Shown piece after piece: positions 10,013 through 28,342 of a DNA stretch of 34,179 bases (its first letter is position 1; each line of letters begins with the position of its first letter). The notes under the pieces were generated by a model, which was not told the origin of the DNA, did no database searches, and saw nothing but the letters and a program-made list of their open reading frames with translations. This DNA is from Opitutales bacterium (GTDB taxonomy: Bacteria; Verrucomicrobiota; Verrucomicrobiia; Opitutales; Coraliomargaritaceae). Made by a program: the position numbers and the translations under genes. The stretch spans positions 4,680-38,858 of the forward strand of contig JABBCA010000041.1 in the NCBI GenBank assembly GCA_018607135.1. The letters are read 5' to 3'.

Positions 10013-12406
10013 ATGCTGAAGCTTCAGACCACCACCTACTTATTTTTACTGCTGCCAATTTTCTTGGCGCAGGCAACGCCACGGGCCCCGATTTGGAAGC
10101 CCGAACGGTTGCTTGGCTCAGCGAATTTAGAGTTAGCCAGCATGCAATATATTGTCCTGCCTGCGGGTGCCCCGCCGAAAGTTCAAGCAGCTGTTGAGGA
10201 TTTGTTGATGGTGATATCGGATCGCATGGGGATTAATTTAGAGCGCTGCGAACCGGCAGCTTTATCCACAAAGCATTCAATTATTTTGAGCCTCCGCGAG
10301 CCGATCGATTCAACAGGCGGTTTTATGATTCAGCTCGAGCGCACAAATGTCCGAGTCTCTGCGTCTTCACACGAGGGCTTGGCAAATGGTATTTATCAAC
10401 TGTGTAAAGATGTATTCGGTGCCCGCTGGTATTGGTCAGGAGAGCTAGGTCTGGAGTATGTTGGTGAGGTGCCAAATAAGTTACCTCGTAGTCGTTGGTT
10501 TGTAGCGCCTGCCTTTATCCAGCGAGCAATGACTTGGGTTGACCGAGATTACAGTCGTCGAAACCGTTTAAATCAACCGTTTCAATTTAATCATGCGCTG
10601 GCTAATGTGTTTACACCTGAATTGTATGAAAATGATCCGGAAGTGTTTGCGATGGTTAAAGGGAGTAGGCCTGAGCCCAAAGGTCACCGAGGCACCGACG
10701 CTCAGCCGAATTTAGCACATCCACGCGCTGTGGAAATTGCTGCAGAGGCAGCCTTAAGCTATTTTAAAAAGCATCCAAGCGCGCTGAGCTTTTCCCTGTC
10801 GATCAACGATAACATTCTCTTTGACGAGTCTGGAGAAACTCAAGCGCTGGTCACTCCCCTAAAGTATTTTCGTCAGCGACCCGATTACACTGATTACGTC
10901 TTTGGCTTTATGAATGCCGTCGCTGAAAAGGTCTTCAACGAAGCTGGAGCTTGGAAGAACGCGAATGGCGAGGAACGTTACCTCACGGCGCTTGCCTACT
11001 ATTGGACTGAGCCCTCACCGAGCATACGATTGCATCCACGTGTGATGCCTGTGCTGACTTCGGATCGAGCGCAATGGCACGACCCTGAGTATCGCAATGA
11101 GGATGAAGCGCTTATTCGTCGCTGGTCAAAGTCGGGGGCAGAACGTATTGCGACATGGGATTACTATTTTGGTGCTCCGTATCCGTATCCGCGTCAGCTG
11201 AATCAATGGATCGCCGAGAGCTTACGATGTTTGAACAAAGAAGGAGTCGATGTGTTCTTTTCGGAACTTTCAAGCACTTGGGGAATGGATGGTGCGAAGG
11301 CATGGCTTTCATCGGAATTGTTGTGGGACCCCGAGCAAGACGCAGAGGCGTTGCTGGATGAATTCTACACCCACTTTTTCGGTGCCGCAGCTGAGGACAT
11401 CCGTTCGTTTTATGAGACTGCTGAACAACATCGTAACGAGAATGAGGGCAAAGCAGATTGGATAAAATTTTACAAAGATGAAGCAGGGATAGGCTTATTT
11501 TCCAAAGCGGTCTTGATGCAGATGAGAGCTTCTCTTGAAGCTGCTAAGCAAGCCGTGCAGGGCGATATGAAGCGTAGTGCTCGTGTGCAAATCGTATCAG
11601 ATGCGTTCTCATTAACTGAGGCTTACGCTGAATTTCATCAGGCGCGTCTTGAGTTAATCCAAGGCAGCTTGGATCACTCTCCAGATCTTAAAGCTCGGCT
11701 AAACTCATACCGAGCTAAACGTGCGGTGTATCGAAAGGCTGCAGCAGAAGTGGTCGCAGGACCCATGCACGCACGTCTCAAAACATTCACTCGGCAGATG
11801 CAAACGAATCCGGAACCATTGGCTTTGGTGGGACTCTCGGCAATGGGGAATCTATCAGAGGCGGAAGACAAATATGGCCTAATTGATTGGAGGCGCGGAA
11901 AGCAGGTCTTTAGGTCAGTTTTGGATGATGTGACCTTGCCTCATATCGGCACGTATCGCTTGAACTTCCTCGGGCCTGACTTACCACGAGTGGATCGCTG
12001 GTTTTTCGATTTACGCCCTTATGAGCATTTGAATGTGACTGGAATTGAAGGGGCAAGCGCGGGTGTTCGTATCGAAGGTGCAGACATTGTCTCGTTTTTT
12101 CGCGATGTCCCGGTGCTGCCAGAACGTAGTTACCTTTTAGATACAAAAATCGCTTGGAATGTCAGCCCAGACAATCGCACCCAGATGAAACTGGTTTGGA
12201 AGGACGACAATGGGAAAGTGATACGAACGGATAAGCCTTTACAGTTGCCATGGGGACATTCTGATGGAGTTCAACGATTAATTCTGCCCTTTAATTCGCC
12301 TAAAAAAGCGTATGACATGCGCATTCATTTGGTGACTTCGAGGCAGTATGAGGGGGACTTCCTTGAAGTGCATGAACTAGACTTTGGAGTGCTAGTTCCG
12401 CGATAG
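10013..12406 (+). CDS. Secreted DUF4838 (alpha-glucuronidase-like) protein
   Basis: This 797-residue protein has an N-terminal signal peptide (about residues 1-22, YLFLLLPIFLAQA). Residues 45-150 look like the small N-terminal domain of GH67/GH20-type glycosidases, ending in GLANGIYQLCKDVFGARWYWSG. Residues about 185-460 match the DUF4838 pattern: NDPEVFAMVKG, an AQPNLAHPRAVEIAAEAA stretch and SLSINDN. The C-terminal part (about 600-797) appears beta-rich and may bind carbohydrate. DUF4838 proteins are abundant in polysaccharide-degrading Verrucomicrobiota, Planctomycetota and Bacteroidota, but I know of no settled substrate. No sulfatase, transporter or other glycosidase lies nearby. Its stop codon directly abuts that of the convergent mnmM-like gene, with no base between. 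Confidence 0.82.
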   Translation: MLKLQTTTYLFLLLPIFLAQATPRAPIWKPERLLGSANLELASMQYIVLPAGAPPKVQAAVEDLLMVISDRMGINLERCEPAALSTKHSIILSLREPIDSTGGFMIQLERTNVRVSASSHEGLANGIYQLCKDVFGARWYWSGELGLEYVGEVPNKLPRSRWFVAPAFIQRAMTWVDRDYSRRNRLNQPFQFNHALANVFTPELYENDPEVFAMVKGSRPEPKGHRGTDAQPNLAHPRAVEIAAEAALSYFKKHPSALSFSLSINDNILFDESGETQALVTPLKYFRQRPDYTDYVFGFMNAVAEKVFNEAGAWKNANGEERYLTALAYYWTEPSPSIRLHPRVMPVLTSDRAQWHDPEYRNEDEALIRRWSKSGAERIATWDYYFGAPYPYPRQLNQWIAESLRCLNKEGVDVFFSELSSTWGMDGAKAWLSSELLWDPEQDAEALLDEFYTHFFGAAAEDIRSFYETAEQHRNENEGKADWIKFYKDEAGIGLFSKAVLMQMRASLEAAKQAVQGDMKRSARVQIVSDAFSLTEAYAEFHQARLELIQGSLDHSPDLKARLNSYRAKRAVYRKAAAEVVAGPMHARLKTFTRQMQTNPEPLALVGLSAMGNLSEAEDKYGLIDWRRGKQVFRSVLDDVTLPHIGTYRLNFLGPDLPRVDRWFFDLRPYEHLNVTGIEGASAGVRIEGADIVSFFRDVPVLPERSYLLDTKIAWNVSPDNRTQMKLVWKDDNGKVIRTDKPLQLPWGHSDGVQRLILPFNSPKKAYDMRIHLVTSRQYEGDFLEVHELDFGVLVPR

Positions 12407-12964
12407 TTAGGCGGGTTTGAATACCCAAAGTATTGGTGGGATGCGCAAGGCTTGTGGCTCATGGTATTCGACGATGTGTCCATTAGATTCCTGATCCAGC
12501 ATCCATTGCTCGACCTGCTTCGACTCCTCTATCCCGCCTTCGTGTCCGCGGTAAGCAGTGACCAGTAATGCGCCCTTTGGTGCGAGCAGTTTTATTGCAG
12601 TATCAAGTGCACGTAGGGTGCTGGCAGGCTGGGTTTGAACACTTTTATCGCTGCCTGGTAGGTAACCTAAGTTAAAAGTAATCGCAGCTGCTTGGCTTAG
12701 GTAGTCATTGAGTAGAGTGTCAAAAACTTTGGCATGATCGCCTTTGATAAGTGTCGCAGTGGTGACCTCCGCCTTCTCGAGCCGCTCGCGGGTGGATTCG
12801 AGCGCACTCGTTTGGATGTCGATGGCGATGACACTGCCTGTAGTTCCGACCAACTGTGCCATTTTAAGCACATCGTGACCATTTCCTGCAGTGGCATCGA
12901 TTGCGAGCGCGCCTTCGGATAAGTGCTGCGCCAAATATTGATGTGCCAGTTCGGTGAGTTGCAT
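12407..12964 (-). CDS. mnmM: SAM-dependent tRNA methyltransferase, MnmM/YtqB family
   Basis: This 185-residue class I methyltransferase belongs to the family long called putative rRNA methylase (PF06962). Bacillus YtqB of this family is now known as MnmM, which methylates the 5-aminomethyl group of nm5(s2)U34 in tRNA. Motif I is AIDATAGNGHDVLKMAQ (about 21-37), the acidic end of motif II is SVIAIDI, and the family signature FNLGYLPGSDKS is at about 97-108. It ends with a GALLVTAYRGHEGG strand and a short C-terminal tail. It lies 12 bp downstream of an FAD oxidase resembling the oxidase half of MnmC, which supports a tRNA wobble role over rRNA methylation. The family call is confident; the exact substrate is inferred. 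Confidence 0.83.
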   Translation of the reverse strand: MQLTELAHQYLAQHLSEGALAIDATAGNGHDVLKMAQLVGTTGSVIAIDIQTSALESTRERLEKAEVTTATLIKGDHAKVFDTLLNDYLSQAAAITFNLGYLPGSDKSVQTQPASTLRALDTAIKLLAPKGALLVTAYRGHEGGIEESKQVEQWMLDQESNGHIVEYHEPQALRIPPILWVFKPA

Positions 12965-12976
12965 TGGGAGGGTATA

Positions 12977-14023
12977 TTATGTGTAACGAGCGATGTCTAC
13001 TTCGTGGTCGAGTGCTTCATTGTCGAAAATATGGTTAATGAGCTGGCGACTCATTTCGGGGCCTACCGATGCACCTTTGGAGCCTAGGCCATTGAGGATG
13101 AATAGGCCTGAGGCATCTGGGTGCCTACCAAGGAAAGGACGTGCGTCTTGTGTGCTCGGGCGTAGTCCGGCCATGTGAGCTTCGACTTGTAGCGTGTGGT
13201 CTTCAGATAAGATCGCTTTCGTGTTGCTGAGTAGTTCTGCCTGCCCTGCTGCTGTGGGTGTCGGGTCTAGGTCGGATTCGTCATAGGTCGCGCCGACACG
13301 AAAGCGCTTCGCTTCGTAAGGGAGAAGCCATTTGGTGCTATGATAGATACTCGGCGGTAGTTTTAAGGATGCGGAGCTTACGATTAGAGTCTCTCCTTTT
13401 GCGGGTGTGAGTGGCAGGTGCTGAAACCAAGGGTTACGGGTGACGCCAGTTCCTTCGCAAAAAACGACACGTTTCGCTTTGAGGTTTTTGTAGCACCAAT
13501 TCCCTGCATTGGCTTGCAGTGTTGAATAGTTGAACTGTTCATCCTGCAGCTTCCCTTCAGCAATAAAGTGTTTCTGTAGCGCTTGGATGAGCACTGGGAG
13601 GTCGACATAGCCTGCCTTGAGGATCTGAAAACTGCCGTGTGTGTCGCGGATTGCACTTGGACCCGCTCCGGCCTTACAGTAGTTGCCTACCACGCCTAAA
13701 TAACGTGGATTACGAATGCGGCGGCCACAGCGTTTAACATCTTCTGCATTTTGGCAGTAGCGTCTGACTGGCATTGGGTAATACACCTTGATGCCAAAAT
13801 ATCGCTCAATCGACTGATAGGTGCGAATTGCTTCAGGTAAGAGGGTGTCGATATTCCAGCTCTTAGTCATCCAACGTCCAGTGACTGGATTGATAATACC
13901 CGCCGCTACGGACCATGCGTTTGGCAGTGACGAACTACCGATGATCCGAAAAGCGAGCCCACGCTGCTCAAGGCGCCACGCAAGCAAGCAGCCTGCAAGC
14001 CCTGCGCCGACGATCAGTGTGAT
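12977..14023 (-). CDS. DAO-family FAD oxidoreductase, MnmC(o)-like
   Basis: This FAD-dependent oxidase belongs to the D-amino-acid-oxidase fold family. The C-terminal part has MAGLRPSTQDARPFLGRHP and NGLGSKGASVGPEMS, typical of the FAD-binding half; SVAAGIINPVTGRW occupies the place of the MnmC segment after the first beta-alpha-beta unit. Its GxGxxG motif (IVGAGLAGCLLAW) is coded at about 14014-13979. No ATG, GTG or TTG in frame precedes it: the frame is open back to a stop at 14104-14102, and the first standard start is the TTG at 13987, which would delete half the Rossmann motif. I place the start at ATC 14023 (reading ITLIVGAG); CTG at 14017 is the alternative. It sits 12 bp ahead of the MnmM-type gene. 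I infer it converts cmnm5U34 to nm5U34. Glycine or another amine as substrate remains possible. Confidence 0.7.
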   Translation of the reverse strand: MTLIVGAGLAGCLLAWRLEQRGLAFRIIGSSSLPNAWSVAAGIINPVTGRWMTKSWNIDTLLPEAIRTYQSIERYFGIKVYYPMPVRRYCQNAEDVKRCGRRIRNPRYLGVVGNYCKAGAGPSAIRDTHGSFQILKAGYVDLPVLIQALQKHFIAEGKLQDEQFNYSTLQANAGNWCYKNLKAKRVVFCEGTGVTRNPWFQHLPLTPAKGETLIVSSASLKLPPSIYHSTKWLLPYEAKRFRVGATYDESDLDPTPTAAGQAELLSNTKAILSEDHTLQVEAHMAGLRPSTQDARPFLGRHPDASGLFILNGLGSKGASVGPEMSRQLINHIFDNEALDHEVDIARYT

Positions 14024-14111
14024 GGATGTGGAGTCTTGGTTGTTGATAGTTGTTGGATGGGCTGAAACTGTATTTAGTATCGAGACATCGTAATTTAGTA
14101 TCTATCTGCCT

Positions 14112-14576
14112 GTGAATATAATTCATCACCTGCTTGAGCGAATTTTTGGTTACTCAAAAAAGTTACCTGCAGAGAGCACGCGCGCGGAACGCGGCCAGTT
14201 TGGCGAAAATTTGGCGGCTGACTATTGTAAACGGAAGCTTGGCTACAAGGTAATCGTCCGGAACTGGCGTCATAAGCGGGATGAGGTCGATTTGATTTGT
14301 CGCGACGGAGCGGTGCTGGTTTTCATTGAAGTGCGCGCTCGATCCGAAAATGCGCTCGTTTCTGGCTATCATTCAGTCGGAAAGCATAAAAAAGAGGTTT
14401 TGCAGCGAGCGTATAAGAACTATTTAAAGCAATTGCAAAATCCACCAAAACACTTCCGTTTTGACATTATAGACGTTGCCATTTCCAACAGTGGTAGCGG
14501 GGCCGTTCGACATTACACGAATGTATCACTTTTTAATAAGCACTATACCGCACAAAAACCTTTAAGTTATGACTAA
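14112..14576 (+). CDS. UPF0102 family protein, YraN-like endonuclease fold
   Basis: This protein has 154 residues from a GTG start, the only plausible start before the conserved core. It shows the YraN/UPF0102 signature: RGQFGENLAADYCKRKLGYKVIVRNWRHKRDEVDLICRD and VLVFIEVRARSE (split here by a few residues), matching the Glu...Asp...ExR pattern of restriction-endonuclease-like nucleases. The usual GEIDL is DEVDL here. The cellular role of the family is unsettled (possible Holliday-junction or repair functions). It is divergent from the FAD oxidase and overlaps the start of zwf by eight bases, so the two are probably translationally coupled. Confidence 0.88.
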   Translation: MNIIHHLLERIFGYSKKLPAESTRAERGQFGENLAADYCKRKLGYKVIVRNWRHKRDEVDLICRDGAVLVFIEVRARSENALVSGYHSVGKHKKEVLQRAYKNYLKQLQNPPKHFRFDIIDVAISNSGSGAVRHYTNVSLFNKHYTAQKPLSYD

Positions 14577-16122
14577 CGAAACCGAAGAACAGAGACATCC
14601 TTTTTTAAAGGGCTTGAGCAAGCATCGTGGCGCGCCGCCGACTGTAATGGTCATTTTTGGTGCTTCGGGTGATTTGACCGCGCGCAAGTTGGTGCCTGCG
14701 ATTTTCAACCTTGGCGTGGATAACTTGCTGCCAGGCGAGTTCCACCTAATAGGTTACGGGCGCAAGCCGATTGAAGATGACTCCTTTCGTGAGATCATGG
14801 ATGAGGCCATTGATGAGCATTCTCGTCGGCCTCTTAATAAAGATATTTGGGAGCGTGTGCGTCAGAATATGGTGTATCACGATGGTGGATACGACGATTT
14901 GGATGCTTTTAAGTCCTTGGCTGAGCGCATCAATAAGATCGAAAGCGACCTGGGGCGCGATGTTCAGCGTCTCTTTTATATCTCTACGCCGCCGGGGGTA
15001 TTTCAGCCGATCATTAAGAACTTGGGGCGCAGTGGCATGGCGAAGGCGCATGTGCATACAAAGATCGCATCAAAGGTCATTATTGAAAAACCTTTCGGTC
15101 GTGATCTCGAGTCTGCGCGTGAGTTAAACTCTGTGATCAATAGCGTATTTGAAGAGCCACAGGTGTATCGTATCGATCACTACTTGGGCAAGGAGACCGT
15201 CCAAGACTTGTTGGTGCAGCGTTTTGCGAATTCGATTTTCGAACCGATGTGGAATCGCGAGTATGTCGATAATGTGCAAATCACTGTGGCAGAGAGTCTC
15301 GGTGTGGGCACGCGAGGTGGCTATTACGATACCAGTGGGGCGCTGCGTGATATGATTCAAAATCACACCATGCAGTTGGTTGCACTCACGGCGATGGAGC
15401 CACCTGTGTCGCTAGATCCGGAGTCGATTCGCGATGAGAAGGTGAAGGTAATCAAAGCGATTCAGCCCTTGGAATTGAAGGCCGACGGTGGCGATGTAGT
15501 GCGTGCGCGTTACACAGATGGTTTGGTGAGTGGCAAACCAGTTAAGGGCTATAAAGAGGAGGAGGGTATTCCAGCAGATTCTTCTACCGAGACCTATGCT
15601 GCGTTGCGACTTTCGATTAATAACTGGCGTTGGCAGGGCGTGCCTTTCTATATTCGTTCGGGTAAGCGTATGGCGCGCCGCGCGAGTGAGATTGCCATTC
15701 AGTTTAAGCGCCCACCAGGCATCTTGTTTTCTGAGGGTAAGAAATTCAACGTGGCTCCAAACACGATGGTGATTAGTATCCAGCCTGACGAGGGCGTCAC
15801 TCTAGTAATGAACTCCAAAATTCCTGGTCTAGAGACGCGCACGCAGCCAGTGAAGATGCACTTCCGTTATTCGACGACCTTTGGCTCGAATACTCCTGAG
15901 GCATATGAGCGGTTGATATTGGATGCAATGATCGGCGATAGCACATTGTTTATTCGAGGAGATGAAACGGAAGCATCGTGGAAGTTGGTTACCCCGATCC
16001 TTAAGCACTGGGAAGAGTGTGGCCAGAACGGCCTGGAGGATTATGCATCTGGTTCTTGGGGCCCTCTTGCCAGTGAGCGCTTACTTTGGGAAAAGAATCA
16101 TCAATGGCGTCGTTCTGGTTGA
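14569..16122 (+). CDS. zwf: Glucose-6-phosphate 1-dehydrogenase
   Basis: This 517-residue cytosolic enzyme oxidises glucose 6-phosphate to 6-phosphogluconolactone, making NADPH at the entry of the oxidative pentose phosphate pathway. The coenzyme-binding motif is VIFGASGDLTARKLVPAIF (about 28-46). The catalytic segment RIDHYLGKETVQDL (about 200-213) and the following RFANSIFEPMWNREYVDNVQIT are intact. Further landmarks are GYYDTSGALRDMIQNHTMQL and YIRSGKRM. The start at 14569 lies within the end of the YraN-like gene. The OpcA-like gene follows after 45 bp, an arrangement known from cyanobacteria and actinobacteria, so G6PDH activity here probably depends on that partner. Confidence 0.97.
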   Translation: MTNETEEQRHPFLKGLSKHRGAPPTVMVIFGASGDLTARKLVPAIFNLGVDNLLPGEFHLIGYGRKPIEDDSFREIMDEAIDEHSRRPLNKDIWERVRQNMVYHDGGYDDLDAFKSLAERINKIESDLGRDVQRLFYISTPPGVFQPIIKNLGRSGMAKAHVHTKIASKVIIEKPFGRDLESARELNSVINSVFEEPQVYRIDHYLGKETVQDLLVQRFANSIFEPMWNREYVDNVQITVAESLGVGTRGGYYDTSGALRDMIQNHTMQLVALTAMEPPVSLDPESIRDEKVKVIKAIQPLELKADGGDVVRARYTDGLVSGKPVKGYKEEEGIPADSSTETYAALRLSINNWRWQGVPFYIRSGKRMARRASEIAIQFKRPPGILFSEGKKFNVAPNTMVISIQPDEGVTLVMNSKIPGLETRTQPVKMHFRYSTTFGSNTPEAYERLILDAMIGDSTLFIRGDETEASWKLVTPILKHWEECGQNGLEDYASGSWGPLASERLLWEKNHQWRRSG

Positions 16123-16167
16123 GCCGCTTAATCTGGGAACCAATTAAAATCAAAACAGATACTTTCT

Positions 16168-17148
16168 ATGGCTGAATTAATCGACGCATTACCTGGTATT
16201 GAACTTCCCGTAGGGGAAGTGACCGCTCGTCTTGCAACCATGTGGGACGGCGGACCTGCAAGTGCATCTGCGGAGTTTCGTGCCTCACAAATGAATTTAG
16301 TTTTGCATTTTGGCTTGGATGTGAGCGCAGAACAAGCGAGAGAGCGATTTGAAACAGTTTTACAGTTCGCGCAGCGCTATCCCAGTCGCATCATCGTGCT
16401 TTGCCCATCGAAAGAGGTTGGCGATGGTTCAATGAGTGCCAAGCTCTTCAGCCAGTGCTATATCGGGGAGTCACACCGAGAGATGTGCTGTTGTGAGGCT
16501 CTGCTGCTAGGCTACAAGTCGGAGGACTGTGGTTATCTCTCGAATCAGGTGTCGGTTTGGTTGGAGCCTGATTTGCCGACCTATCATTGGTTCAGCGGTG
16601 TTCCGGGAAAGCGCATTGAGAGCTACTTTGAAAACTTATTGATTGGGGTGCGTCGCTGTGTTTATGACAGCAGCTGCGAGACGGAGGACTTATCGAAGCT
16701 CGATTGGCCTAGCGCGACATCTGCGAGTGATCTTGCGAAGGCGCGCTTATTGCCCGTGCGCCAAGCGGTCGGGCAGTTCTTGAGTGGCTACAAAATCGAA
16801 AGCCTGTGCCATGGATTAAAACGAGTTACCGTGTCTCACGACGATTCAATGTCAGGGGAAGGCCAGCGGTTAATGGAATGGATTAAAGACTGTCTCGGAG
16901 AGTGTAATAAGTGCACGGATTGCGCAGCCGCGAAGGCTGAGTTTTCAACTGTGAATTGTGATACCTCGGAGTGTTCGCTCTGCTTGGAGTGGGAATATGA
17001 CGACGATCGATATTTCCAATGGCGTAAATTTAGCGATGGAAGTTTGGGCGAGATCCAAGCTTATTTGGGCAAATCAAAAGAGATCATACCTACCCGTGTG
17101 AAGCCACTGGCACCAGAACAAGCACTTTCGGAAGCGCTATTTTTCTAA
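16168..17148 (+). CDS. OpcA-like glucose-6-phosphate dehydrogenase assembly protein
   Basis: This 326-residue soluble protein directly follows zwf. Residues about 40-165 show the OpcA pattern: MNLVLHFGLD, YPSRIIVLCPSKE, HREMCCCEALLL and VSVWLEPDLPTYHWFSGVP, then VRRCVYDSS. OpcA promotes assembly or activation of G6PDH, and in cyanobacteria it is a redox-responsive partner. Unusual here is a Cys-rich stretch at 242-272 (Cys242, 246, 249, 252, 264, 269, 272; spacing CX3CX2CX2C then CX4CX2C), plus three consecutive cysteines at 107-109. The cluster could bind a metal or Fe-S centre, or act as a thiol switch; this is inference. The family assignment leans partly on context. Confidence 0.78.
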   Translation: MAELIDALPGIELPVGEVTARLATMWDGGPASASAEFRASQMNLVLHFGLDVSAEQARERFETVLQFAQRYPSRIIVLCPSKEVGDGSMSAKLFSQCYIGESHREMCCCEALLLGYKSEDCGYLSNQVSVWLEPDLPTYHWFSGVPGKRIESYFENLLIGVRRCVYDSSCETEDLSKLDWPSATSASDLAKARLLPVRQAVGQFLSGYKIESLCHGLKRVTVSHDDSMSGEGQRLMEWIKDCLGECNKCTDCAAAKAEFSTVNCDTSECSLCLEWEYDDDRYFQWRKFSDGSLGEIQAYLGKSKEIIPTRVKPLAPEQALSEALFF

Positions 17149-18407: not shown

Positions 18408-18482
18408 GACATGCTGCTAACGAGGGCTTTTTGCTTTCCGCTGTAGGAATTGAGCGTCTTACTGTGCTCATACATAGATACG

Positions 18483-19895
18483 ATGAATTACAAAGAGCAT
18501 TTTGATTGGGTTGCTGAAAACGACTCTAAGCCGCGTGGCAAACAACGAGGCTTCCATAGCCAAGTCCTACGCAAGTTGCGTCATCACATCCGCCCGGGGT
18601 CTCGTGTCTTAGAGTGGGGTTGTGGACGAGGCGACTTGCTGGCCGAGCTGGAGGTGGCTCACGGCCTTGGGGTCGACGTAAGTGTCAAAATGATTGAGCA
18701 GGCCACGAAAAAGCATGATTCGGATGTAATCGAGTTCAGAGAGGGCGATCTGCATATGGATTCAATAGATGAGCCATTCGATGCGATTATCATGGACTAT
18801 TTGTGTGGCTATTTAACTGACATTCAGCAGTGCTTCGAGAATCTGCATGGTTCCTGCCATGCGCGCTCACGCATATACATCACTTCATTGAATAATTTAT
18901 GGAAGCCATTGTTCTGGCTCGGGCAGAAGATGGGCTTCGTTTTGAAACAGCCACCCAGTAATTGGCTGACAACGGACGATCTGGTCAACCTCTTGGAAAT
19001 GTCTGGGTTTGAAGTGGTGAAGAAAAGCTCTGAGCAACTCTTCCCATTCCGAATGCCTCTGCTAGACGGATTCTTCAATCGCTTCCTCGCACGTTTACCG
19101 ATTTTTCGCCACATGGGCGTGTCGCTTTTCATCATCGCCCGCCCGGTCATGCGGCCACGTATTGAAAGCGAATATAGCTGCTCAGTTATTTTGCCCGCAC
19201 GCAACGAGTCTGGTCATATTAAGCCCGCTTTGGATCGTATTCCTGTGCTCGGGCAGAAGACAGAGCTGATCATCGTCGAAGGTAATAGCACCGATGATAC
19301 ATGGGATGTCATCGAAAAGGAAGTGGCCGCCTACGAAGGCTTGTTGGACGTGCGTTATATGAAGCAGCCAGGCAAGGGCAAGTGGGATGCGGTGTTTGCT
19401 GGTTTTGATCAAGCGCGGGGGGATGTGTTGGTCATTCAAGATGGAGATTTGACTGCCCCGCCTGAAGATTTACCTAAATTCTATGCCGCCATTGCAAGTG
19501 GTCGCGCAGAGTTTGCCAACGGTAGCCGCTTGGTATATCCCATGGAGTCTGAAGCGATGAAACCTCTGAATTTCTGCGGAAACAAGTTCTTTGCTCTCGC
19601 ACTTAGCTTCGTGATCGATCGCCCAATCAAAGATAGTTTATGTGGCACCAAAATGTTGCTCCGAGAGGACTATGTGCGCTTACTTAAGCGTATCGACGAA
19701 TTTGGCGAATTTGATCCTTACGGAGATTTTAATTTGATCTTTGGATCTTCTTTATTGGACCTAGCAATTCGTGACGTTCCAGTGCGTTACAAAGATCGCG
19801 CCTATGGTGATACGAATATCTCTAGGTTCTCAGGTGCTGCATTACTCTTGCGAATGACTTGGTTCGGATTACGCAAATTACGATTCCATAAATAA
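18483..19895 (+). CDS. Methyltransferase-glycosyltransferase family 2 fusion
   Basis: The ATG at 18483 gives 470 residues beginning MNYKEHFDWVAEN; a TTG 11 codons upstream is possible but less likely. The N-terminal half (about 1-220) is a class I SAM methyltransferase with motif I VLEWGCGRGDLLAEL, GLGVDVS and IIMDYLCGYLTDI. The C-terminal half (about 225-470) is a GT-A fold glycosyltransferase of the DPM1/GT2 kind: SVILPARNESGHI, ELIIVEGNSTDDTWDVI, the DxD-like motif VIQDGDLTAPPEDL, then CGTKMLLRED and a membrane-proximal VRYKDRAYGDTNISRF. No clear transmembrane helix follows. Such fusions are annotated in several phyla. A role in a lipid-linked or surface glycan is likely; the acceptor is unknown. 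No glycan cluster surrounds it. Confidence 0.88.
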   Translation: MNYKEHFDWVAENDSKPRGKQRGFHSQVLRKLRHHIRPGSRVLEWGCGRGDLLAELEVAHGLGVDVSVKMIEQATKKHDSDVIEFREGDLHMDSIDEPFDAIIMDYLCGYLTDIQQCFENLHGSCHARSRIYITSLNNLWKPLFWLGQKMGFVLKQPPSNWLTTDDLVNLLEMSGFEVVKKSSEQLFPFRMPLLDGFFNRFLARLPIFRHMGVSLFIIARPVMRPRIESEYSCSVILPARNESGHIKPALDRIPVLGQKTELIIVEGNSTDDTWDVIEKEVAAYEGLLDVRYMKQPGKGKWDAVFAGFDQARGDVLVIQDGDLTAPPEDLPKFYAAIASGRAEFANGSRLVYPMESEAMKPLNFCGNKFFALALSFVIDRPIKDSLCGTKMLLREDYVRLLKRIDEFGEFDPYGDFNLIFGSSLLDLAIRDVPVRYKDRAYGDTNISRFSGAALLLRMTWFGLRKLRFHK

Positions 19896-24578: not shown

Positions 24579-25271
24579 TCATTCTACGGATTCGCTTAGG
24601 AGCCTGACATCTAAATCTACCGAACCTCTGAGCACCGGAGGAAAGAAAATCATTAAGTAGCGATGGTTGGGTTGAAATGTATAGGTTTTGATTAATGCGG
24701 GCAGGAGTTTTTCACCGTCGAACGATCGCGCCCATAGATTCATCGGAAGGCTTTCTTGCACGCTGCGAGGTGCTGATTCACCCCTTGTGATCGAAACACG
24801 CTCTTGCTCTAAGAGGCCGGCCAAGTCTTTACCTGAAAAGTTAAGAAAAACTAAGTTGTTTTTAGGCAGGCTCAAAGAGCTATCATCGAACGGGTAGACC
24901 AAGAATTTTAGCTGCTTGTCAGGATTTTCTTTGTAACGAGGGTTCTTTATGAAAATCAGTAGCCATTCCTCGGATCCCTTAGGAATGCTGACCTGTGCGA
25001 CTATTTTTTGGTCCTTTTTGCTGACGAATCGTATCGGGCTTGTTCCCTTAAAGGTATAGGGGCCTGAGCGCTCAAGAGCGTGTGTTTTAATGATTATGGG
25101 TGGTTCTATTTTTGCGCCTGCAGCGATGGCTTCTTGGCTGACGGGGCTGTATTCGACGCCCCGCACAGGATACTGTCCGTAAGTTGTGAAGATGATCTCA
25201 CGTAGAGCTTGCCCACTCATTAAATGATTTAAAAAGCAAACTGCTAGGAGTGTGATTAGTTGCCGCTTCAT
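24579..25271 (-). CDS. Secreted protein coupled to the giant pseudopilin
   Basis: This 230-residue protein has an N-terminal signal peptide (QLITLLAVCFLNHLMSGQA, about 3-22) and no further membrane helix. The rest looks like two beta-rich segments with VRGVEYSPVS, KIVAQVSIPKGSEEWLLIFIKNP and FQPNHRYLMIFFPP. I do not recognise a Pfam family. Its start codon overlaps the stop of the 1024-residue pseudopilin gene as ATGA (25271-25268), so translation of the two is coupled and they probably act together in the envelope. From memory, large pseudopilins of Verrucomicrobiota are often paired with a small secreted protein; this was not checked. Confidence 0.78.
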   Translation of the reverse strand: MKRQLITLLAVCFLNHLMSGQALREIIFTTYGQYPVRGVEYSPVSQEAIAAGAKIEPPIIIKTHALERSGPYTFKGTSPIRFVSKKDQKIVAQVSIPKGSEEWLLIFIKNPRYKENPDKQLKFLVYPFDDSSLSLPKNNLVFLNFSGKDLAGLLEQERVSITRGESAPRSVQESLPMNLWARSFDGEKLLPALIKTYTFQPNHRYLMIFFPPVLRGSVDLDVRLLSESVE

Positions 25272-28200
25272 ATTTCTTCTTCGCTTAGCCAGCGTATAGA
25301 GAGTAACTTAAATTTGCGATTCGTTCCACCTTTGCTGACTCTTGTAAGGGGCTCAGGAGTCCTCTGTAAGGTCGCTTCTATTGTGGCATTGCTTAGCGGT
25401 TCACCTAATTGAGAAAAGCTCTCGCTGCGAGCGCGTATTCTAAAGGTGTCCGAGCGAGGGGAGAGCATCGGGCCTATTGCAGTCATAATGTCGGCTTGTG
25501 TTAAAAAGCCAGGTGAGAAGTGGTCGATATCTATCACATCATCTGCTGGTCCACGCACGCCAGTGGTTTCCCAAAGATGGTCCCATTGTTGCTTCCCGTT
25601 AGTCGTGAGCGTATTCGCTATGGCCTGTTCCAGAAGGCTTTGGTCTTGCTCTGCTCGGGTTGAAAGAAACGCCTCCATCGACTGGAAAGGTTCGCCGCGG
25701 GCCTTGAGTAAATTTACAATGGACTGTGCCAGATTTTCAAATTGATCGTCATCAAGACGTCGGGCTCCATGACGGTAATAGGCCGAGGGGGCGACAGGTT
25801 CACTGCTTTCAAATTCTGGTGTTTGAGGCGCTTCGTAGGTCTCCTCTAGAGAGTGTGAGAAACGCGCGAACGTGCCTTCTCTGGAAACATTTTTTGCTAC
25901 GATCGCACTTAAGTCTGAAGTGTCATCTTCGGGATAATCCAGATACTCCCATTTGTTTAAGCGTAGTGATGCAAGCACTGCTTTCCATGCGGCAACTGAA
26001 GTGGAGTTAACATTGAAGCGGTTCGCGACCATGAGTGATTCGGCCGGACCTTTGGCGGCATCTGCATCATTGTCCGATTCATTTTGCCAATCCGTAAGTT
26101 TGGTGCGAAAGCGATCTAAATCATAAAAAGTTAAAGCGGGATTGCTAGGACCCGCATCCGAGCTGAAATTAGTGGTCTCATCGCTACGGCTCATGCCTGA
26201 AAAATAGTAGCGGTCGAACCATTCGTTGGTATTGGTAGCACCATCACTTCCCCAACTGTTGCCGACTTGGAAGGGGCGTTCATTGTGGAAGTAAGTGTGT
26301 TGAAGTGCTGCGAGTGAGAGTATGCGTTCGCGCGGTAGCTCAAAGAGCGGAGCGTCCTGCCAGAGACGATTGTAGAGGTTTCCATTGGAGCCCGAGCTGC
26401 GGTCCATAAAGCGACGAAAGATGATCGTATTGATGGTGCCAGGGTCATATATTTCAGCTGGGTCTGCTAGCAGTAAGGGGCTGATGCCATCTTTGACAGG
26501 AGCGTAGGCACTACCCGATGACAGAGTTGGGTCGTTGTCTAAATTCCAGTCGGGGTTGAAGCTAGGCGATGGGTTTCGAGGGTCGTGATCATAGAGCCAG
26601 CGGCCACGGAAATATTCTGTGTCCGCTGTGCTCAAATGCGGACCTCTTAGTATAAAATGATAACCAAACTTTGCGCCTGAGTGAGTGTTTGCATATCCAC
26701 TTGGACGTGTTGAAACAGGTTCGTATTGTAAGCCATCTAGCTGAGCGATTAGAGTCTTAGAATTGGTTAGTTCGTTGAATAGGTATACTTTGACCGAAAT
26801 TGTGTCGGTGCCCACGCTCTCGTGCCGCAAATCTGCACTTAAGCGTGGTTCGCCAGTATCAATCCCAATAGATCCACCTAGGTTATGATTGGGGTCATTC
26901 CATTGCTTTCCGTCATTCTGTATTGAAAAGTATGGAGAGGTGCCAGTCGCTCGGGTCGCATCGACTCCAGTCCAATTCTTGGTGCGCCCAGGTAGCCAAG
27001 GCTCATTTGCATTATTTTCGAGCCGAATCGACATCGCATTGTCTGGATGGCTTGGGTCGCCTGTGAGGCTTTGAATGTTAATGGGCGAACTGCTCGCCAT
27101 TGTTCCTGTGGTTTTAATTACCGTCACCTCTGGCAATCCCGTGATGTCTAGTTCAAGGTTGAGATTGTTGCCGTTGGTATCTCGCATGTTCAAGGTATGT
27201 GTAAATGGATTCCAGAATTCACAGAAAAAGCGCATGCGCAGGTAAAAGTTTGGGTTGCTCGCCGCAGGAGAGTGAGAGCGAATAGTGAACGCTATCATGA
27301 AATTTGATAGAATTGGGGTAATGGGCATTGCGGCCTCACCGTCATTTAGCGGGTCGATGTCGTCGATGCCTTGTATTTGTGTGAAGAGTCTTTTGTCTGC
27401 GACTTCATCGTTCATTTGTCCGAGTAAATCGGCATTTTGCTCGCCAAGCCTGATGTAGTTCTGCACCCCAGTTCCAAGTAATGCTGGATATAGTGAAAGG
27501 TCTTGTAGGAGTCCACCGTCATTACCGTCCAGTGTATTTGCGAGCACACCGAAGCTTCCCGGAGTTAAGGCATGAAAGGGCGTTTCACTGGAAAAATCGG
27601 CATCGATCTCTTTAAAGTCAGCTCTGGAGAGCAGTTGCTTAATGGAGTTCACTCGATCTAGGACTTGAGCATCCGCAGAGGTGTAGCGGTCATATTTACT
27701 AAAGATTCCTTCGAGTCCTTGAGTGGATGCGACTTGTAATTGCAGACTTTTAACAGATGCATCGCTCAAGAAGTTGGGGTCTTCTTTTAGATTCAGCGGC
27801 AGGGTCCCTGCGCTCGCCTTTATACCTTCGTCGCTGATCCACCATGCGATCCGACTGTTAATATTACTAGATTGATCAAATACGGGCGTGCTTGGCGCAA
27901 AGACGTGTTGAGTCGCGTCGGGTCCAGCAGAGCCTTCGCCGACGAGTTGCATGCGATCGTTGGATAAATTGTTGGGGTCTAAATTCCTTCCTGAGACCAG
28001 CCAGGTTGGGGCGGCGGTGGGATTGGTGGTATCCCAGACACCGGTCCAGAAGCGTGCCGCAGGGTCGAAATTATTGTCGCCTAAGATTTCGGCTCGCGCA
28101 GTGACTCGTTGGTCGGGGCCGGCGTTTTTCTGTAGTTCGCCAATCGCGAGCATGAGGGCGAGGCGGGCGTTTTCTTTGGCGAGGAGCCGAGCTTTGTCAG

Positions 28201-28342
28201 CCGAGCTGACTTTGGTTTCTACTTCGACGAGAATCGTCATGGAGAGCACCAGCAAGAGCACAAAGGCCATGATCGAGAGCGCAATGACCAACGCGAAGCC
28301 AGATTGGGCTCGTTCGTAATTCGAATATGGGCGTTGGATCAT
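25268..28342 (-). CDS. Giant PilX/GspK-like pseudopilin, Verrucomicrobiota type
   Basis: This is a 1024-residue protein with a type IV pilin-like N-terminus. A short basic leader (to Gly15) is followed by the hydrophobic helix FALVIALSIMAFVLLLVLSM (16-35) and VEVETKVSSADKARLLAKENARLALMLAIGEL. As in PilX/GspK, Glu at +5 of the mature protein is missing. The large remainder is probably an extracytoplasmic domain with FWTGVWDTT (about 97-105) and a C-terminal signature ending FKLLSIRWLSEEEI. This resembles the Verru_Chthon-type cassette proteins, in which big pseudopilins occur in many copies in Verrucomicrobiota. It is followed by an ATGA-overlapping secreted-protein gene. No pilus motor, secretin or prepilin peptidase gene is near, so these must be elsewhere. 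Function (secretion, adhesion or surface assembly) is unknown. Confidence 0.82.
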   Translation of the reverse strand: MIQRPYSNYERAQSGFALVIALSIMAFVLLLVLSMTILVEVETKVSSADKARLLAKENARLALMLAIGELQKNAGPDQRVTARAEILGDNNFDPAARFWTGVWDTTNPTAAPTWLVSGRNLDPNNLSNDRMQLVGEGSAGPDATQHVFAPSTPVFDQSSNINSRIAWWISDEGIKASAGTLPLNLKEDPNFLSDASVKSLQLQVASTQGLEGIFSKYDRYTSADAQVLDRVNSIKQLLSRADFKEIDADFSSETPFHALTPGSFGVLANTLDGNDGGLLQDLSLYPALLGTGVQNYIRLGEQNADLLGQMNDEVADKRLFTQIQGIDDIDPLNDGEAAMPITPILSNFMIAFTIRSHSPAASNPNFYLRMRFFCEFWNPFTHTLNMRDTNGNNLNLELDITGLPEVTVIKTTGTMASSSPINIQSLTGDPSHPDNAMSIRLENNANEPWLPGRTKNWTGVDATRATGTSPYFSIQNDGKQWNDPNHNLGGSIGIDTGEPRLSADLRHESVGTDTISVKVYLFNELTNSKTLIAQLDGLQYEPVSTRPSGYANTHSGAKFGYHFILRGPHLSTADTEYFRGRWLYDHDPRNPSPSFNPDWNLDNDPTLSSGSAYAPVKDGISPLLLADPAEIYDPGTINTIIFRRFMDRSSGSNGNLYNRLWQDAPLFELPRERILSLAALQHTYFHNERPFQVGNSWGSDGATNTNEWFDRYYFSGMSRSDETTNFSSDAGPSNPALTFYDLDRFRTKLTDWQNESDNDADAAKGPAESLMVANRFNVNSTSVAAWKAVLASLRLNKWEYLDYPEDDTSDLSAIVAKNVSREGTFARFSHSLEETYEAPQTPEFESSEPVAPSAYYRHGARRLDDDQFENLAQSIVNLLKARGEPFQSMEAFLSTRAEQDQSLLEQAIANTLTTNGKQQWDHLWETTGVRGPADDVIDIDHFSPGFLTQADIMTAIGPMLSPRSDTFRIRARSESFSQLGEPLSNATIEATLQRTPEPLTRVSKGGTNRKFKLLSIRWLSEEEI

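Follow-up and report, generated by a model that had tools for sequence, protein, structure and literature searches.

A predicted oxidase–methyltransferase gene pair for the last two steps of mnm5(s2)U34 synthesis in an Opitutales bacterium

The window, meaning the whole stretch of 34,179 nucleotides analysed here, comes from contig JABBCA010000041.1 of an Opitutales bacterium (assembly GCA_018607135.1). Its minus strand carries a gene for a flavin adenine dinucleotide (FAD) oxidase, followed by a gene for an MnmM methyltransferase. The two genes probably form an operon (at a probability of roughly 0.86) for the last two steps in the synthesis of 5-methylaminomethyl-(2-thio)uridine, mnm5(s2)U34, in transfer RNA (tRNA). 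The oxidase would convert the 5-carboxymethylaminomethyl group (cmnm5) to the 5-aminomethyl group (nm5), and MnmM would convert nm5 to mnm5.

12977 to 14047, minus strand (upper end from the proposed AUC start): gene for a DAO-fold FAD oxidase, proposed to convert cmnm5(s2)U34 to nm5(s2)U34, from its PF01266 match and fold
12965 to 12976, minus strand: spacer of 12 bases between the oxidase and MnmM genes
12407 to 12964, minus strand: gene for MnmM (YtqB family), an nm5(s2)U34 methyltransferase by equivalog call, from its NF053511 score and conserved residues

The oxidase stop codon occupies 12979-12977 and the MnmM gene begins at 12964, so the gap between them is 12 bases. A preliminary description of this DNA had proposed an adjacent DAO-family oxidase and MnmM-type methyltransferase, 12 bp apart and in reaction order, and the open reading frames (ORFs) and their Pfam and NCBIfam scores confirm the arrangement. 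Of the extent that it gave, 12407-14023, the MnmM end stands and the 5' end of the oxidase does not, since 14023 marks an ATC codon and the likeliest start lies at 14047.

In the proposed route, MnmE and MnmG would make cmnm5U34 in tRNA by adding a glycine-derived group, and MnmA would add the 2-thio group (s2). The FAD oxidase would then oxidise the N-carboxymethyl side chain, an N-substituted glycine, to an imine, which would hydrolyse to glyoxylate and nm5(s2)U34. Finally, MnmM would methylate the amine with S-adenosylmethionine to give mnm5(s2)U34. An imine and its hydrolysis followed by methylation is the chemistry described for MnmC in extracts of PMC3648344. What the analysis shows is which genes are present and in what order, that they adjoin or are fused, that their partnership is almost exclusive, the predicted fold and the conserved residues; the substrate, product and chemistry of the oxidase, and a transcript shared by both genes, are inferred.

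The methyltransferase ORF runs from an ATG at 12964 to 12407 and encodes 185 residues. It matches the Pfam family rRNA_methylase (PF06962, 117 bits) and lies above the cut-off of the NCBIfam MnmM equivalog NF053511 (172.6 bits against 135). For the MnmM of Bacillus subtilis (bsMnmM), extracts of Cho et al. 2023 (PMC9976899) list seven residues whose mutation nearly abolished activity. Six of the seven are identical in the window protein, where D31, N98, Y101, K107, Y138 and H141 correspond to D34, N101, Y104, K110, Y141 and H144. Judged from its sequence, the protein is clearly an MnmM, and the equivalog call and the conserved residues predict activity as an nm5(s2)U34 methyltransferase.

In the genome behind the window (3.53 Mb in 106 contigs, 99.98% complete and 2.44% contaminated), MnmG and MnmE are neighbours on contig C100 and MnmA is encoded on contig C89, all three over cut-off. 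Searched for MnmC1, the genome contains nothing that reaches the cut-off, the window oxidase being the only near-full-length match; searched for PF05430, the methyltransferase domain of MnmC, it gives zero matches at E 1e-8. This is the genomic context expected of a cmnm5U oxidase: MnmE and MnmG are present together with an nm5U methyltransferase, and MnmC was not found. It also agrees with the preliminary description, which had called for mnmE and mnmG without a fused mnmC; MnmA was found in addition.

Evidence for a common role can be provided by observing the two proteins in the same genomes. Among 286 genomes of the window's class, MnmM was found in 66, the oxidase in 79 (E 1e-25) and PF05430 in 84. 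MnmM and the oxidase occur together in 65 genomes, MnmM only in 1, the oxidase only in 14 and neither in 206. At the genus level, 29 of 30 genera with MnmM also carry the oxidase. MnmM and PF05430 share 2 genomes, with MnmM only in 64, PF05430 only in 82 and neither in 138. In a sample of the phylum (387 genomes), all 62 genomes with MnmM belong to the window's class.

Adjacency in the class was tested with all 80 oxidase places of this survey. In 24 of the 66 MnmM genomes, from 17 genera, the oxidase gene either immediately precedes mnmM on the same strand (20) or is joined to it in one ORF (4). Most of the other MnmM genomes have the oxidase elsewhere (41 of 42), in one case 2.7 kb away. The oxidase profile, A1, was built from 24 oxidases including the window's, of which 23 adjoin or are fused to MnmM and one (L057) lies 2.7 kb off. 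Because just one of the 41 oxidases found elsewhere entered this profile, the 40 unlinked ones are an independent test of the association.

The sample of the window's own family comprises eight genomes, one of them that of the window. The oxidase is present in seven, and in six of these MnmM lies directly downstream; the seventh oxidase (G145) runs off the end of a 3155-base contig, and the eighth genome (G051) has neither protein. The linkage in close relatives on which the preliminary description had staked its proposal is thus found in six of seven cases, the seventh ending with its contig. A gene-neighbourhood survey, which it had also suggested, gives for the wider class the association in 65 of 66 genomes and adjacency or fusion in 24 of 66.

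The two proteins can also be joined in a single polypeptide. The oxidase and MnmM form one ORF in four genomes of the class survey, which belong to a sister Opitutales family (f2). In that family, 250 genomes were surveyed and 29 have MnmM, 28 of them over the cut-off and one (G294) under it at 103 bits. The MnmM of 26 of these 29 genomes, from 8 genera, is part of a single ORF with the oxidase at the N-terminus and a short linker. The fused ORFs span 543-714 residues from stop to stop, except in G423, where the contig ends within the ORF. Among the fused genomes, three (G208, G409 and G294) are single contigs.

Fusion ORFs: loci L031, L035, L051, L054, L203, L270-L291, L293, L294 and L298-L300

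Locus L203, titled Opitutaceae bacterium, has the same contig coordinates as genome G309 of f2. Three f2 genomes of genus g141 (G379, G396 and G451) have a separate MnmM, and no oxidase was found in the stretches of about 6 kb around it, with no genome-wide search made there. In a tree of 105 rows (a quick search, with support from the Shimodaira–Hasegawa-like approximate likelihood ratio test, SH-aLRT, only), the five fused oxidases included, out of the 26 fused genomes and one of them as L203, form one clade with SH-aLRT 97, so a single origin is likely for these five. An AlphaFold2 model of the L203 fusion consists of two confident domains joined by a low-confidence linker at residues 378-385 (predicted template modelling score 0.69), and the structure-comparison matches cover its oxidase half only. 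According to extracts of PMC3648344, the oxidase is the C-terminal half of E. coli MnmC; the order of the f2 fusion is thus reversed relative to that enzyme. Two more divergent fusions, G294 (a 691-residue ORF) and G306 (a 581-residue ORF), lie outside the tree.

Public genomes were scanned with profile A1, and the best 80 of 433 relatives were retained. By title, these 80 loci come from Opitutia relatives, methanotrophs and other Gammaproteobacteria, Mariprofundaceae, a Nitrosomonas and Bacteroidota. MnmM lies downstream on the same locus in 46 of the 80, fused in one (L203), within 200 bases in 43 and further away in two, all distances being taken to the start of the profile match; in four of the 34 loci that have no MnmM, the sequence stops no more than 100 bases from the oxidase. 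Because 24 of the 66 MnmM genomes of the class have the two genes adjoining or fused, in the same order and strand, and 46 of these 80 loci have MnmM downstream, the pairing exceeds chance. Two of the loci may be misbinned: L169 (CAIVCR010000068.1) is a 'Bacteroidia' oxidase that groups with Methylobacter, and L143 (JAACDF010000105.1) is a 'Gammaproteobacteria' contig with an Opitutia-type oxidase–MnmM pair, its oxidase 54% identical to the window's.

Partners of the oxidase were then counted in 40 of the genomes behind these loci, all carriers of the oxidase and chosen for taxonomic spread; at least two of them (behind L177 and L203) recur in the class and f2 surveys. MnmM is present in 26 (24 over cut-off), PF05430 in 13, both in none and neither in one. 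The PF05430 ORFs have 225-259 residues, and all 13 genomes are Bacteroidota by title; the Bacteroidota covered are Hymenobacteraceae, Saprospiraceae and the like, not Bacteroides. The genome with neither methyltransferase (G522) is a Bacteroidia bin whose oxidase groups with Methylobacter in the tree. The oxidase therefore goes with whichever family of nm5U methyltransferase a lineage owns. The two-gene pathway foreseen for Verrucomicrobiota gains support, and the pairing is not limited to that phylum.

The oxidase matches the Pfam family DAO (PF01266, 96 bits). Its best NCBIfam score is with the glycine oxidase ThiO (TIGR02352), at 100.3 bits against a cut-off of 250.8, and it reaches 84 bits with MnmC1 (TIGR03197), whose cut-off is 174.2. 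Since it lies below both cut-offs, neither name applies by curation; no MnmL model was among the NCBIfam matches obtained. A role as ThiO was rejected, both because the score is 150 bits under the cut-off and because no ThiO over cut-off was found in 141 genomes of the class.

Profile A1 separates a distinct oxidase family to which, by sequence, the window protein belongs. The 143 family members score 174-472 bits (window oxidase 459), E. coli MnmC scores 71, and none of 20 further DAO proteins, retrieved from the class by the ThiO model, exceeds 53. In the tree the family stands apart from six of these DAO proteins (SH-aLRT 100), MnmM-linked and unlinked oxidases are interspersed, and the clade that unites the window oxidase with MnmM-linked relatives is supported. 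E. coli MnmC sits on a long branch to the same side as the family, an unreliable placement. Three sites in the window oxidase can be compared with known enzymes.

13991 to 14008, minus strand: FAD-binding GAGLAG motif, residues 6-11 counted from the ATC at 14023 (alignment A1)
13160 to 13162, minus strand: Arg288 in AGLRP, invariant in alignments A1 and A3, at the position of the ThiO arginine
13073 to 13093, minus strand: NGLGSKG motif, with the counterpart ALGSRG in E. coli MnmC and GHFRNG in ThiO

Arg288 aligns with AGLRPG of ThiO and with GVRCAT of E. coli MnmC. We take the ThiO arginine to be the one that holds the carboxylate of glycine, and Arg288 to occupy the same position. The third motif has the family form NG(L/F)G(S/A)KG, and a loose pattern for it matches 132 of the 143 oxidases; of the 11 missed, two end at a contig edge before the motif. 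Among the MnmC-like proteins of the class, LGS[KR]G was counted in 0 of 7 loci, each covering only 1500 bases either side of the PF05430 match.

An AlphaFold2 model of the oxidase, counted from 14023, has a mean predicted local distance difference test score (pLDDT) of 95.9. Its best Foldseek match is the iminodiacetate oxidase IdaA (6pxs; template modelling score 0.81, 23-24% identity), followed by glycine oxidases and MnmC. VIA-align gives Z 36.7 over 337 aligned residues at 2.4 A with glycine oxidase 3if9, and Z 34.9 over 339 at 2.8 A with E. coli MnmC 3ps9, so the fold is slightly nearer to glycine oxidase. The top matches are oxidases of glycine or of its N-substituted forms, to which the side chain of cmnm5U also belongs. 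The structural comparison with the MnmC oxidase domain suggested in the preliminary description thus reveals a close fold, and it does not discriminate the function from that of ThiO.

Several observations weigh against the operon as read here. The window oxidase scores higher with ThiO than with MnmC1, solved-structure profiles and VIA-align likewise rank glycine oxidases over MnmC, and sequence and predicted fold together cannot tell MnmC-type from ThiO-type activity. In the class, 42 of the 66 MnmM genomes do not have the two genes side by side, one MnmM genome (G209) has no oxidase, and 14 genomes have the oxidase without MnmM. Six of these 14 have PF05430, and in five of them (G075, G081, G104, G164 and G221) the ORF that holds it has 691-779 residues, as long as a complete MnmC, so the oxidase there would be redundant or altered. 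Eight of the 14 have neither methyltransferase, one (G145) being cut by a contig end inside the oxidase, and PF05430 accompanies MnmM in two genomes, G098 and G251, in ORFs of 689 and 758 residues respectively. The genomes are related, and all these counts are of non-independent events. In MnmM itself, bsMnmM K11, which contacts U33, is replaced by His in the window; this position is His, Arg or Gln in 129 of the 144 rows aligned to bsMnmM, and because it varies over the whole alignment, the membership of the window protein stands despite the mismatch. The position of K110 holds another residue in 29 of the 65 rows from Verrucomicrobiota and, for the fused proteins, in 17 of 32 rows (some genomes counted twice). 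Finally, MnmE–MnmG can make nm5U directly from ammonium, according to extracts of PMC9976899 and PMC3648344, so the presence of MnmM alone is no proof that an oxidase is needed.

If the oxidase acted instead on a free amino acid or amine, of the glycine, sarcosine or iminodiacetate type, and stood next to mnmM by chance, its ThiO score and the glycine and iminodiacetate oxidases that lead the solved-structure profiles and the fold comparison would be expected. This is improbable, given that the ThiO cut-off is missed by 150 bits, that the oxidase accompanies MnmM in 65 of 66 genomes even where unlinked, that 39 of 40 oxidase genomes have MnmM or PF05430 and never both, that it is fused to MnmM in 8 genera, and that it has the LGSKG motif in common with E. 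coli MnmC at a place where ThiO differs. The ammonium reaction suggests another route, in which MnmM would use nm5U made by MnmE–MnmG and the oxidase would be an accessory elsewhere in tRNA or one-carbon metabolism. The 14 genomes with the oxidase and without MnmM would fit it, but pairing with either family of nm5U methyltransferase, and the fusion, make little sense unless the methyltransferase receives its substrate from the oxidase, and we hold this route to be quite improbable. An altered substrate is possibly to be seen in five f2 oxidases from MnmM-negative genomes (L254, L258, L259, L264 and L265), which form a separate clade (SH-aLRT 99) and score 174-292 bits. Were the Opitutales oxidases of MnmM-less genomes, some with a full-length MnmC-like ORF, changed in this way, the window oxidase might share their role; that is very improbable for a protein of 459 bits in a different supported clade with MnmM-linked relatives. 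Elsewhere in three genomes of the low-scoring clade (G164, G081 and G075) there is also a PF05430 ORF as long as MnmC. The preferred reading, a cmnm5U oxidase paired with MnmM, draws on the co-occurrence (65 of 66), the fusion and the presence of MnmE and MnmG without MnmC; on this sequence evidence, the function that the preliminary description had assigned to a generic oxidase through its neighbour is supported.

The closest known system for the two proposed reactions is E. coli MnmC, a bifunctional protein made of MnmC1 and MnmC2. Its oxidase has a close fold and an LGS[KR]G motif near the C-terminus in common with the window's. MnmC is one chain with PF05430, whereas the window has two ORFs, a methyltransferase of the PF06962/NF053511 family and an oxidase under the MnmC1 cut-off. 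The preliminary label, a split MnmC-like pair, has therefore been given up: MnmM is not of the MnmC2 family, and the oxidase has 84 bits where MnmC1 requires 174.2. The f2 fusion differs from MnmC in the same choice of methyltransferase family and in its N-terminal oxidase. ThiO shares the fold and the conserved Arg of AG(L/I)RP with the window oxidase, and differs in its C-terminal motif (GHFRNG against NGLGSKG) and in a curated cut-off that the window oxidase does not reach. IdaA acts on a free small molecule, an N-substituted glycine to judge from its name.

The pair formed in Bacillus subtilis by MnmL, which we take to be YurR, and MnmM (YtqB) likewise has a separate oxidase and the same methyltransferase family. 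The stand-alone PF05430 methyltransferase, MnmC2 or (presumably its other name) MnmD, as in DUF752 of Aquifex, is of another family than MnmM and was not found in the window's genome; it partners the same oxidase family in the 13 Bacteroidota genomes. Extracts of a 2025 review (PMC12548931) tabulate MnmC/MnmL for nm5s2U and MnmC/MnmM for mnm5s2U, and cite 2024 J Bacteriol work in which MnmL was named in Gram-positive bacteria. Starting from three Gram-positive genomes, Cho et al. 2023 (PMC9976899) looked for an operon or a fusion without finding one. In their account the MnmC(o)-like enzyme was unknown for organisms that carry MnmM, and equally for those, Bacteroides among them, whose mnmC(m) is an orphan; they urged that its distribution be mapped.

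The pathway is thus already known in kind, a two-protein route having been published for Bacillus, and so is the mutual exclusion of MnmM and MnmC. In the open-licence PubMed Central literature, as far as its extracts go, no report was found of an oxidase–MnmM operon or fusion, or of an oxidase family with two partners; within that literature, this oxidase family appears to be new, and so do its pairing with two partners and the fusion in reversed order. We lean towards the view that the missing MnmC(o)-like enzyme of bacteria with MnmM or an orphan PF05430 methyltransferase is one oxidase family, which Verrucomicrobiota share with several Pseudomonadota and with Bacteroidota, a family with two alternative partners and an independent, reversed 'MnmC' fusion in f2. 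The genome-wide pairing with two alternative methyltransferases and the natural fusion point to one concrete candidate family in three Gram-negative phyla. If so, a fusion of oxidase and methyltransferase for the wobble uridine has been assembled at least twice, with different methyltransferases. Should the family prove to be MnmL, the oxidase would already be known, and its spread, partners and fusion would be new.

Oxidase start. The stop-to-stop frame of the oxidase is 12977-14101, and it contains no ATG, GTG or TTG upstream of the FAD motif. The start chosen by the ORF tool, a TTG at 13987, lies inside the protein and was rejected, as it would delete the GAGLAG motif.

14045 to 14047, minus strand: proposed AUC initiation codon, an ATC 11 codons before IVGAGLAG, conserved in the lineage

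An ATC stands 10-12 codons before the motif in 12 of 15 lineage loci (the window, L053, L071, L139-L141 and L143-L148). Of the exceptions, two (L060 and L142) offer a nearby ATG, and the third, L072, has neither codon at that place; in the congener G806, a TTG takes the place of the ATC. In seven of the 15 loci the frame is free of canonical starts from the last stop to the motif; of 87 places in other family members, 0 lack one within 30 codons (some genomes counted twice). Five of the 12 loci with ATC are close kin, and ATC is an ordinary codon. To judge from these comparisons, the gene may initiate at AUC, with 14047 the likeliest position.

Other genes in the window. A DUF4838 gene (10013-12406, plus strand) and mnmM abut tail to tail at 12406/12407, with zero bases between them. 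On the other side of the pair, 14569-17148 (plus strand) holds zwf, for glucose-6-phosphate dehydrogenase (G6PD), and then a gene for an OpcA-like G6PD assembly protein (PF10128, 43 bits). Further along, an ORF of 1024 residues at 25268-28342 (minus strand) gave zero matches in a Pfam search at E 1e-5. At 18450-19895 (plus strand), a single ORF of 481 residues combines a methyltransferase domain with a family 2 glycosyltransferase domain, in that order.

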